From Pontibacter sp. G13 (GTDB lineage: Bacteria; Bacteroidota; Bacteroidia; J057): a stretch of 64,000 nt of DNA. The DNA lies in NCBI RefSeq assembly GCF_031851795.1, contig NZ_CP134696.1, positions 4,960,001 to 5,024,000 on the forward strand, read 5' to 3'. The first letter of the stretch is position 1, and each line of letters starts with the position of its first letter. The notes under the pieces were generated by a model. It saw nothing but the letters and a program-made list of their open reading frames with translations. It had not been told where the DNA came from and ran no database searches. Shown here one piece after another: positions 11,961 to 63,380 of the stretch. A program made the position numbers and the translations under genes.

Positions 11961-12148
11961 GTGCGGCTGATAGGTGCGGCGTAAAGTGCCTGGATGGTCC
12001 GAACTTGAGAGGAGTCCCCGAGCGCTGGGCGGCGATATATCGCCCAGTGTTCGGGGACCGAGCTTTGCGAGCCAGAAAGGGACTGACCCGGCGAAGTCCC
12101 TGCCAGAAGCTATTCGACCTGCCTAGCACGCCGGGATACGCCCCAATC
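11961..12148 (+). repeat. Structured intergenic repeat element, copy 1
   Basis: One of eight related elements. Leader gtgcggctga at 11961. Closing stem ggcgta (11978-11983) / tacgcc (12137-12142). 35-nt-loop stem cccggcg (12087-12093) / cgccggg (12129-12135). The middle holds a very strong hairpin: arms of 18 bp at 12014-12031 and 12041-12058 with two G-U pairs and a 9-nt loop. It replaces the GTCGGTGG/CCACCGAC stem of most other copies. The element lies between convergent genes, starting 13 bases after the SDR stop. Confidence 0.7.
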
Positions 12149-20307: not shown

Positions 20308-20478
20308 GATTTGGGCGATCCCCGCGTGCAGGGCATAGTGGGGTTCGCTCGGCAATGGAGTCGCGGGGCCAGGCTGATCCGAGGGTCCGTTGGCACTCCC
20401 GTCCTCCGCTTGAGGCTCCGGACCTCGCCTAAAGGCTCGCCTCTCCCATCCTTATCGCCGCCGCAAGCCATCTGCACA
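20308..20478 (-). repeat. Structured intergenic repeat element, copy 2 (subtype II)
   Basis: Minus-strand copy. Closing stem, read on the minus strand: ggcgat (20459-20454) / atcgcc (20319-20314). Inner stem ggtccg / cggacc (plus-strand positions 20384-20389 and 20419-20424). 35-nt-loop stem ccccgcg / cgcgggg (20320-20326 and 20362-20368). Leader tgtgcagatggcttgcgg reads inward from 20478. It shares TAAGGATGGGAG-like and GGTCCG features with the copy near 27.7 kb, so these two form a subtype. Confidence 0.65.
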
Positions 20479-20561: not shown

Positions 20562-20798
20562 GGGGCGGCTGGCACGTGTGGCGTGAAGTGCCTGAAGGAG
20601 TAGGCGGTGGGCGACTCTTCCTCTTGGTCCGCGATGAAATCTTCGGAAATCCCCCCGTCTCATGACGCTAGTATATCCACCGACCGAAGCGTGAGCGGAG
20701 TCCGGAAGGGACCCTCGGATCGAGTCCGGGGCAAGTGGCCCCGCAACTCATTTACCTAGAAACGGGCATGATGCCCATCGCGCGGAGACACGCCCTCG
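20562..20798 (+). repeat. Structured intergenic repeat element, copy 3
   Basis: Plus-strand copy facing away from copy 2. Closing stem ggcgtg (20580-20585) / cacgcc (20789-20794). Variable insert of 66 nt held by gcggtgg (20604-20610) / ccaccg (20677-20682). An extra hairpin of the ggatcgagtccgg type near 20715-20731 is shared with the copy near 36.1 kb. The 35-nt-loop stem is weak here (ccgc/gcgg, 37-nt loop). It ends about 70 bases before the hydrolase ATG. Confidence 0.65.
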
Positions 20799-20867
20799 TC
20801 CTCCTGAAAAAATACTCCGTCGATCTTCCTAAATTGAAGCTTCATCCTACAACATCAACTTATCTGC

Positions 20868-27526: not shown

Positions 27527-27547
27527 CGATTCTTTCCGCTGATGATA

Positions 27548-27774
27548 TTTTGGGCGCTCCCCCGGTGTTGGACATCGCGGGGAGCGCTTGACATGGAGGT
27601 CCGGGGTCAGGCTTTCCGGGGGTCCGCTTGCGCTCCCGTCCTCGGAGAGAAGGTCCTGCCGGATGCTTGGGAGAATGCCAGAAGAGTGGAGGACCAGACC
27701 ATTTCTCTTCATCCCTCGGACCTCGCTGGCGCTCGCCCCTCCTATCCTTAGCGCCGCACCAGCCAGCCGCACAA
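27548..27774 (-). repeat. Structured intergenic repeat element, copy 4 (subtype II)
   Basis: Minus-strand copy in the 466-base gap 27527-27992. Closing stem on the minus strand ggcgct (27755-27750) / agcgcc (27558-27553). Inner stem ggtccg/cggacc at plus positions 27621-27626 and 27717-27722, with a 90-nt insert. Stem ccccgg/ccgggg (27560-27565 and 27601-27606) with exactly 35 nt in the loop. Leader caccagccagccgcacaa reads inward from 27774. The rest of the gap (27775-27992) shows no gene. Confidence 0.65.
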
Positions 27775-36030: not shown

Positions 36031-36270
36031 GATTTGGGCGTGCTCCAGCGTGTTCAGAATTTCTTCATCGCTGGGCAGACTGGGCGCTGGGTCACTTGCC
36101 CGGACTAGATCCGGGGGGCCTTTACGGATTCGCTGATCGCTCAGTCGGTGATGGAAAAGAGCCCAAGACCTGTAAAGACGCTTTCCGGAGGATGATCTGG
36201 ATGAGATCGGTTCCCCGCACCGACTACTCCTTCAGGCAATTCACGCTCGTAAAGACAGCCTCACGCCACC
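36031..36270 (-). repeat. Structured intergenic repeat element, copy 5
   Basis: Minus-strand copy in the 445-base gap 35891-36335. Closing stem ggcgtg/cacgcc at plus positions 36037-36042 and 36262-36267. Perfect 8-bp stem agtcggtg/caccgact at 36143-36150 and 36218-36225, holding a 67-nt insert. Stem ccagcg/cgctgg at 36045-36050 and 36085-36090 with a 34-nt loop. Extra hairpin cccgga/tccggg at 36099-36115. A gcgtga motif is duplicated near the leader. The remaining part of the gap holds the SusD terminator. Confidence 0.7.
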
Positions 36271-53606: not shown

Positions 53607-53751
53607 CCCCGATATGATTGCCCTGCTTTGGGGCACTTTCTATGCTATTGGCCTGATCCCATTCCGGTTGATAAGCGGAGCATGCTGTTTTCCCTGATTT
53701 TGGGGTGCCGCGGCATGCTGGGTATCAGGTTTCTGTTGTGAGATAGGAGTT

Positions 53752-53910
53752 GCCGCGTCGGTCCCTTCCGGTCTACGCGGTCGCTCCGGTCGGTGGCTTC
53801 AAGATTCGCATGGCCAATGGTACCATCAATTGGCACATGTCACCCCGCAGAAGCCCTGATTCCACCGACTACACCTTCAGGCACCTCACCCCACACCAGC
53901 CATCCGCACC
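53752..53910 (-). repeat. Structured intergenic repeat element, copy 6 (degenerate)
   Basis: Minus-strand copy in the 668-base gap 53607-54274. The leader GTGCGGATGGCTGGTG and the stem gtcggtgg/ccaccgac (plus positions 53789-53796 and 53862-53869, 65-nt insert) are clear. The closing stem and the 35-nt-loop stem are missing or decayed beyond 53752, so this copy is truncated. Confidence 0.55.
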
Positions 53911-59935: not shown

Positions 59936-60157
59936 GTGCGGATGGCCTGCGGAGGCGTGAAGGGCCTGGAGGATTCAGTCGGTGAGCCCACTTCTGTATT
60001 CCAAGGGGAGGAAACTGTGGCCCCGTGGTCGCTTTTGTCGGGCAAGGTCCCAAGCTCCCACCGACCGAGCGATCAGCGAGTCCGGAAGGGCCTGACCCGG
60101 CGACCTATTGGCCCAGCGTATGAACGCCTGCCAAGTTCGCCGGGGCACGCCCAAATC
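59936..60157 (+). repeat. Structured intergenic repeat element, copy 7 (best preserved)
   Basis: Plus-strand copy in the 359-base gap 59903-60261. Leader gtgcggatggcctgcg at 59936. Closing stem ggcgtg (59954-59959) / cacgcc (60146-60151). Stem gtcggtg (59978-59984) / caccgac (60059-60065) around a 74-nt variable insert. Conserved linker ccgagcgatcagcgagtccg, then stem cccggcg (60096-60102) / cgccggg (60138-60144) around exactly 35 nt. The 35-nt loop can fold further (ttggc/gccaa and gcgt/acgc). The 3' end is cacgcccaaatc. Confidence 0.75.
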
Positions 60158-63167: not shown

Positions 63168-63380
63168 TATGTGGGCGTGCCCCAGCGTCTCCTGGCCAAA
63201 GGTTCTCTCCGATCATCTCGGTCGCTGGGTCGTGCCCTTCCAGGCTCGCTGATCGCTCGGTCGGTGGGCAGATAGATTCCAATCAGACTGGGATGGGACG
63301 ATTTTGTCAGCGCAGAGCGGGATCAAATCCCACCGACTGAACCTTCCAGACCACTCACGCCTCGCAAGCCATCCGCACCT
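63168..63380 (-). repeat. Structured intergenic repeat element, copy 8
   Basis: Minus-strand copy between convergent genes, in the 366-base gap 63115-63480. Closing stem ggcgtg/cacgcc at plus positions 63174-63179 and 63356-63361. Perfect 9-bp stem gtcggtggg/cccaccgac at 63260-63268 and 63329-63337 with a 60-nt insert. Stem cccagcg/cgctggg at 63181-63187 and 63223-63229 with exactly 35 nt inside. Leader ggtgcggatggcttgcg reads inward from 63380. The AGCG/CGCT change relative to copy 7 keeps pairing. Confidence 0.75.

Follow-up and report, generated by a model that had tools for sequence, protein, structure and literature searches.

A probable family of large, folded, REP/REPIN-like mobile DNA elements in Pontibacter sp. 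G13 and other Bacteroidota

REP sequences and REPINs, which RAYT is believed to mobilise, are built from hairpins of 20–40 nt with a GTAG/CGTC foot. Other folded bacterial sequences include the integron attC site, in which a sequence-variable single strand retains a conserved structure, and the ERIC/BOX repeats, which are structured, intergenic, 100–200 nt in length and found in other phyla. Herein we analyse a stretch of 64,000 nt from Pontibacter sp. G13 (positions 4,960,001–5,024,000 of contig 1 of a 7.67-Mb genome, hereafter the window), containing eight segments; each is probably, at a likelihood of about 0.7, one copy of a DNA element about 90–250 nt long, mobile but non-autonomous, that occurs in many Bacteroidota. 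Our best reading is that these represent a new family of large, folded, non-autonomous DNA elements of REP/REPIN-like character. The family is near to REP/REPINs in behaviour, being intergenic, located 3′ of genes, present in hundreds of copies, apparently folded as DNA, found as inverted doublets, free of target duplication and non-autonomous, but differs in associated enzymes and also in size and architecture, a conserved core and five helices taking the place of the short hairpin and foot. Its folded strand, like that of attC, is variable in sequence and conserved in structure; the conserved motifs presumably differ from the attC R/L boxes. No description of the family was found in Rfam or in the literature searched, with supplementary tables (including those of PMC6006769), most subscription journals and preprints lying outside the scope of that search.

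All eight segments were matched by a covariance model of the element, R1, in a search of 864 kb of the genome that included the window (E-values of 8e-32 to 3e-9), in agreement with a preliminary description of this DNA in which they had been grouped as one family. No ninth copy was found in the window by this search. Three copies are on the plus strand and five on the minus strand:

59936–60157, plus strand: example element copy, running from leader GTGCGGATGGC.. to 3′ end CGCCCAAATC (R1 143.5 bits; BLASTN seed of the family in its own genome)
11961–12148, plus strand: element copy (R1 86.8 bits)
20308–20477, minus strand: element copy, head-to-head doublet partner of 20563–20800 (R1 56.3 bits)
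20563–20800, plus strand: element copy, second half of the doublet (R1 58.7 bits)
27547–27772, minus strand: element copy (R1 49.4 bits)
36031–36264, minus strand: element copy (R1 59.0 bits)
53696–53909, minus strand: element copy (R1 120.4 bits)
63168–63378, minus strand: element copy (R1 134.9 bits)

The places first listed for these segments stand with small corrections, other than the start of the segment given as 53752–53910, which truly begins at 53696, and the assignment of five copies to the minus strand. The element opens with the leader GTGCGGMTGGC and continues through helices P1, P2, P3 and P4, the core GAGCG..CAGCGAG, the returning strands of P3 and P2, helix P5 and the return of P1, to finish at the 3′ end CAAATC. 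Its termini read GTGCGG../GCGTGAGG.. at the 5′ side and CGCCCAAAT at the 3′ side. Within the example copy the parts are as follows:

59954–59959, plus strand: P1 closing stem, 5′ strand GGCGTG, covarying with 60146–60151 (alignments A3/A4)
59961–59966, plus strand: P2, 5′ strand AGGGCC, with the strongest covariation; its fourth position is usually a purine–purine mismatch
59971–59976, plus strand: P3, 5′ strand GGATTC (covariation)
59978–60066, plus strand: P4 hairpin GTCGGTG..CCACCGACC, its apical region variable (from alignment; subfamilies carry other P4 sequences)
60067–60077, plus strand: conserved core GAGCGATCAGC in the P4–P3 interval, its columns mostly near-invariant in alignment A3
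60078–60083, plus strand: P3, 3′ strand GAGTCC (covariation)
60088–60093, plus strand: P2, 3′ strand GGGCCT (covariation)
60096–60144, plus strand: P5 hairpin CCCGGCG..CGCCGGG, its loop variable (covariation)
60146–60151, plus strand: P1 closing stem, 3′ strand CACGCC (covariation)

The three-stem structure of the preliminary description survives in part, in that covariation of the closing stem and of the second hairpin was recovered, whilst P2, P3 and the variable P4 had been overlooked. R1 itself was based on 22 copies with one P4 subfamily, collected by BLAST, of which three (59936, 63168 and 53696) come from the window.

The fold is carried by covariation in alignment A4, for which 85 copies were aligned to R1 without hand-picking for pairing. 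Here 92.1 % of cells are paired, as opposed to 75.0 % in shuffles, and double changes are seen in 28 of 35 pairs (16.8 in shuffles). Double-change cells number 370 against 101.8 in shuffles, with none of 500 shuffles as high, which bears out the compensatory stem changes first noted in the window. The signal collapses when the partner column is slid by 1–3 positions, and changes on a single side are rare (17 cells in the summed covariation table). The element family has one fold, maintained by covariation. A further alignment, A6, with its general model R2, comprises 35 hand-picked copies from a pairing-rewarding fit, G–T included, so that covariation in A6 is biased towards paired cells. Compensatory changes might also arise without selection, if imperfect palindromes were corrected through template switching as the DNA is replicated, and this would account for Watson–Crick stems with few intermediates. 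Such an origin is, however, highly improbable, as P1 and P2 enclose further helices and pair over >100 nt, and as mismatches are preserved rather than corrected: position 4 of P2 (e.g. 59964 with 60090) is a purine–purine mismatch in 67 of 83 copies from the Pontibacter genome, and one P3 position is G–G or T–G in 44 of 55. These conserved mismatches are perhaps a recognition feature. Mismatches of the P2/P3 type have similar counterparts in distant genomes.

Energy calculations and pair counts suggest that the conserved fold belongs to DNA rather than RNA. An RNA under selection would give common G–U and rare A–C pairs, whilst helix cells from the Pontibacter genome comprise 15 G–T and 23 A–C of 2149 with three mismatch columns excluded (31 and 41 of 2335 with these included), and those from the element-rich genus g56 comprise 9 and 4 of 2080 with one column excluded (10 and 4 of 2196 with it). 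By comparison, 18 tRNAs from the same 864 kb and from stretches of the g56 species G131 display 21 G–T in 390 pairs; this count is informative, whilst their A–C count of 0 is not, because ARAGORN itself demands pairing. In folding of 72 copies (those of 78 fitted Pontibacter copies with at least 15 of 18 Watson–Crick comparative pairs), single-stranded DNA energies recover 70 % of the comparative pairs on the written strand and RNA energies 37 %, with corresponding values of 56 and 21 % for the bottom strand. Copy by copy, 38 fold better as DNA, 3 worse and the others equally (p 8e-7), and the tRNA control (78 % with DNA energies, 80 % with RNA energies) reveals no comparable gap. So far as the preliminary description implied a folded RNA, this is not upheld, since the stems shun G–T about as they do A–C and DNA energies recover the structure far better; neither the tolerance of G–U nor the RNA energy support expected of a structured RNA was seen. 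The family had not been recognised among known RNA families at the outset, and Rfam 15 likewise matched no family in the window at the gathering score; permissive scans of 22 copy-bearing loci returned two weak matches alone (E 0.12 and 1.8).

With regard to genomic location, the 864 kb contain 85 copies, or 1 per 10.2 kb, a density somewhat below the 1 per 8 kb first estimated; extrapolation gives about 750 copies for the genome, so that the expectation of hundreds stands. A search of the whole genome gave 2086 first-look candidates; 150 of these were scored, and every one was a match at E ≤ 1. When genes were predicted with a simple custom codon-usage script, 42 of the 85 copies were situated between convergent genes, versus 41 of 231 gaps >250 bp (Fisher p 5e-8), and 2 between divergent genes, versus 62 of 231 such gaps (p 8e-8). 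Copies are intergenic, at gene 3′ ends, and avoid promoter regions; the 83 of 85 outside divergent gaps recall the placement of REP/REPINs. Nearly all matches (84 of 85) cover the whole R1 model, with at least two internally shortened, and isolated half-elements number three in the 864 kb, one of them adjoining a listed copy. The strong preference for convergent and gene-3′ positions, together with the paucity of broken copies, would also suit a structured RNA at gene 3′ ends (e.g. one that terminates transcription in both directions or stabilises mRNA) and propagated by occasional duplication, and if both strands had to fold as RNA then G–U would be avoided as well. RNA energies, however, recover the structure poorly on either strand, a terminator needs no conserved strand-specific core or ends, and there are young copies with unrelated flanks as well as genus-specific bursts, which leaves this explanation quite unlikely.

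The preliminary description had proposed covariance-model searches of the Pontibacter genome and of related Bacteroidota, and copies were found in both. When 395 genomes of the class were searched with R2, this architecture was detected in 18 of them, Pontibacter included, with 10 candidates scored per genome. As the genome searches scored at most 10–150 candidates per genome, absence from a genome is weak evidence; with this proviso, a search of 12 further genomes from the window's family left 11 without a match. In genus g56, by comparison, the matches among scored candidates come to 76 of 150, 136 of 150 and 25 of 122 for the three species. For G131, 58 elements were present in 400 kb taken by contig number (about 1 per 7 kb), and 125 matches were counted in 291 kb of mostly g56 DNA, although this density (1 per 2.3 kb) is an upper figure because the stretches were chosen for known matches. 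Many draft contigs of G131 start inside an element (L267, L269, L271, L272, L274, L350, L354 and L361–L367), indicating that the repeats break assembly.

Further afield, a looser DNA pattern of the 'GGATG' subfamily retrieved 33 stretches, all Bacteroidota by title: Schleiferia thermophila (19), Shiella aurantiaca (5), the metagenome-assembled genome J049 (3), Cyclobacteriaceae (2), Chryseobacterium (2), Chitinophagales (1) and another Bacteroidetes metagenome-assembled genome (1). The Y1 places of J049 are identical to those of G009, a member of the window's family, and the two are apparently one genome. Copies are single in the loci found with this pattern (Schleiferia, Shiella and others). 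The pattern gave no match in viral contigs, and an exact pattern of the Pontibacter-type core gave none in either the genome-contig collection or the viral contigs. The core in other genomes takes the form TGCGTGAGGGATG.GnAGGG..CCCGnAGCAGCCCGACC[hairpin]GGnCACGCCCAAA; several subfamilies coexist in the Pontibacter genome, of which the 'GGATGG' one matches the type of distant genomes. On these matches, the family spans several Bacteroidota families.

Comparison of the copies with one another indicates a mobile repeat, dispersed with precise ends. An all-against-all comparison of 130 copies with their flanks listed 17 close pairs, of which five, at 92–97 % identity, have only the element in common and are surrounded by unrelated flanks. 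In these five, the homologous part begins at most 15 nt from GTGCGG, and its other limit is no more than 2 nt from where the element ends. Three other close pairs are parts of longer duplications, and for the pair 4727111/4730112 the match is confined to the first 136 nt. An empty site was also recognised by eye, as two reading frames that are next to each other in the sister species G131 are separated in the g56 species G059 by a copy (L378, 626–732); this copy has a weak R2 score (E 0.0087), yet family motifs throughout. No target duplication was evident, with no excess of matching flanks amongst 112 copies. The strong differences in copy number among g56 species, and the lack of matches in most other searched genomes of the window's family, lend support to mobility.

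A number of observations weigh against a mobile DNA element. Broken copies are rare, which might also reflect selection on the elements, where they sit, for some function in the host. There is no replichore strand bias amongst 146 copies of the main contig (p 0.63), and the syntenic test of filled and empty sites among g56 species had one usable flank pair. Taken alone, the example copy of the window folds modestly better than its shuffles as DNA (z −2.07) and not better than these as RNA (z −0.86). No mobilizer was identified among the candidates tested (Y1, Rpn): a search for Y1/HUH transposases (PF01797, E ≤ 10) found none in G059, G098 and G131, members of the richest genus, or in G020, and an element occurs at 1 of 27 Y1 loci of carrier genomes (two places having been fetched twice). 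At Y1 loci from genomes without known elements, the figure is 0 of 13.

These Y1 results bear equally on the more specific proposal that the elements are REP-type repeats moved by a RAYT/Y1 transposase. The habit of the two is the same, namely intergenic positions at gene 3′ ends, high copy number, inverted doublets and no target duplication, and Y1 proteins are encoded by the Pontibacter genome, G009, Schleiferia and Shiella. Moreover, according to the accessible text of PMC6006769, atypical structures flank the subclass 2.6 RAYTs of Bacteroidetes and have further copies in the genome, and these may be the same family. Against this, the element lacks a GTAG/CGTC foot, is far larger and branched, and is all but absent from the vicinity of Y1 genes, which makes such an origin unlikely. 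For genus g56, RAYT/Y1 as the mobilizer is not supported, and to judge from the protein search the mobilizer would, there at least, not be a detectable Y1 enzyme.

For a mobile, non-autonomous DNA element, the following course of events can be envisaged. The single strand written GTGCGG...CGCCCAAAT would fold into the conserved branched structure, and a nuclease or transposase supplied in trans would read this fold along with the conserved core and the 3′ end. The enzyme might make its cut near CGCCC/AAAT, at the outer end, with another at the 5′ end in the case of single elements, after which the piece would be copied or moved into intergenic DNA, much as is supposed for REP/REPINs via RAYT. 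Anything in this scheme past a folded DNA, acted on in trans and with no target duplication found, is inferred. With its hundreds of natural variants, the family might also allow the structural code read by a DNA-mobilising enzyme to be deciphered.

The arrangement of neighbouring copies is likewise reminiscent of REPINs. When 122 of the 125 matches in the 291 kb of mostly g56 DNA are considered, the three weakest being excluded, close pairs comprise 45 head-to-head (−)(+), 1 (+)(−) and 1 (++), so that 45 of 47 are inverted doublets. In the Pontibacter genome most copies are single, with 9 of 13 close pairs being (−)(+), 3 (+)(−) and 1 (++). Spacers of the 45 g56 doublets are largely of two sizes, at 102–104 nt (16) and 327–338 nt (19), with 10 of other lengths. 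The 333-nt spacers (G098, L277–L284) contain several tandem hairpins CCTTGTAAGT..GAAAATGA..ACAAGGTAAA, and the 103-nt spacers of the same stretches one related hairpin. Near-identical doublets in G131 point to a recent burst.

One open g56 pair encloses an open reading frame of 326 aa, which corresponds to TIGR01784 of NCBIfam ('Rpn family recombination-promoting nuclease/putative transposase') at E 7.9e-9, below the curated cut-off, and has no Pfam match above cut-off. It is conceivable, if doubtful, that the elements are the terminal sequences of transposons in which an Rpn (YhgA-like) PD-(D/E)XK nuclease serves as transposase. The element would then be the folded end of a new transposon class, acted upon as single-stranded DNA by an Rpn-family recombinase, and the singles and empty doublets of Bacteroidota would be its non-autonomous, MITE-like (miniature inverted-repeat transposable element) leftovers. 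In G131 and G098, all eight fetched Rpn loci with both flanks readable have the order [inverted element]-rpn-[element], in units of 1262–2292 bp, and a ninth has one element followed by the contig end. The inverted-match test saw seven of the eight units, with the right element of L308, beyond the 900-nt flank, seen in the flank search. All four open (−)(+) pairs (gaps of 1067–1258 nt) in 556 kb of G131 chosen regardless of Rpn hold rpn, these four being the G131 half of the eight units. Sequences of the 103-nt and 333-nt spacers recur in the inner flanks of the units, a pattern to be expected if the doublets arose by internal deletion. Residues D10, D63, E81 and Q83 are invariant amongst nine aligned Rpn proteins, and by our reading would correspond to D11, D63, E82 and Q84, at which RpnA was mutated according to the accessible text of Kingston et al. 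(PMC5350276). Lastly, a 1.9-kb segment with rpn and element is duplicated in the Pontibacter genome at 94.8 % identity, and on its right side the duplication stops no more than 4 nt from where the element ends.

Other findings speak against elements as Rpn transposon ends. An inverted element is missing from the left end of the duplicated Pontibacter unit, and no Rpn gene was detectable in G160, G401, G402 (Chryseobacterium), G404 (Shiella), G406, G407 or G409, in each of which 1–5 copies were counted. The element search around Rpn relatives covered 30 fetched loci; a scan of 25 Rpn loci outside G131 and G098, among them those of G059, the third g56 species, revealed no inverted element pair at any of the 24 whose flanks could be used, although three displayed a 10-nt end motif (≤2 mismatches) on both sides without inverted homology. 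For G131 and G098 themselves, 30 Rpn matches were listed, many of the unfetched ones being contig-end fragments, so that the count of eight out of eight covers the fetched loci alone. The lack of such ends elsewhere accords with Zhong et al. (PMC10327210), in whose accessible text rpn genes are described as without identifiable inverted ends, and as unlikely transposases or autonomous transposons, with hitch-hiking proposed instead; no autonomous transposase of PD-(D/E)XK fold is known according to that text.

Two readings of the g56 units follow, namely Rpn transposons complete with their ends, or doublets with Rpn as cargo. Carriers without a detectable Rpn gene favour cargo, whilst the finding of no other cargo favours a transposon. 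Rpn as a universal mobilizer is not supported, given the Rpn-less carriers and the 24 other loci devoid of an inverted pair. In comparison with MITEs, the elements are similarly short and non-autonomous, and those of g56 have inverted ends and may be related, through internal deletion, to a unit that bears a gene, but a single element is without simple terminal inverted repeats, no target duplication was found and there is no known transposase family. In one genus the disputed Rpn nucleases are linked with defined mobile ends, so that whether they are transposases or hitch-hikers can be tested directly; if the Rpn transposon proved true, a 'putative transposase' family would gain its missing ends and an autonomous transposase of PD-(D/E)XK fold would be at hand.

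Outside g56, associations of rpn and element are less regular. Of the Rpn places counted in the Pontibacter genome, a count that excludes those near 0.64, 5.87, 6.15 and 7.40 Mb, three have a near element in the expected orientation (two of these being the one duplicated segment), one has an element in the other orientation and two have none, a proximity that element density could explain. The single Rpn gene of Schleiferia, which is broken by an in-frame stop, has an element some 270–310 bp downstream. Two rpn genes of Pontibacter (L324:2525-3068; G000:C1:4890525-4890944) have a tandemly duplicated 3′ part, recalling the intragenic antitoxin RpnS of E. coli.

An autonomous unit was sought in the Pontibacter genome amongst four (−)(+) pairs with gaps of 1–3 kb and rejected, as three contain genes whose translations look ordinary and the fourth spans a CRISPR-like array. 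This array (repeat ..CAGACCCTTCTCCACTACAACAAGGATTAAGAC) lies between two elements at L090:2842-4873 (G000:C1:5286842-5288873), and further repeated intergenic stretches adjoin it. The window additionally contains two pairs of direct repeats, 6216–6288/7471–7543 (79 %) and 50261–50312/54216–54267 (88 %), which are inside predicted open reading frames and are probably paralogues.
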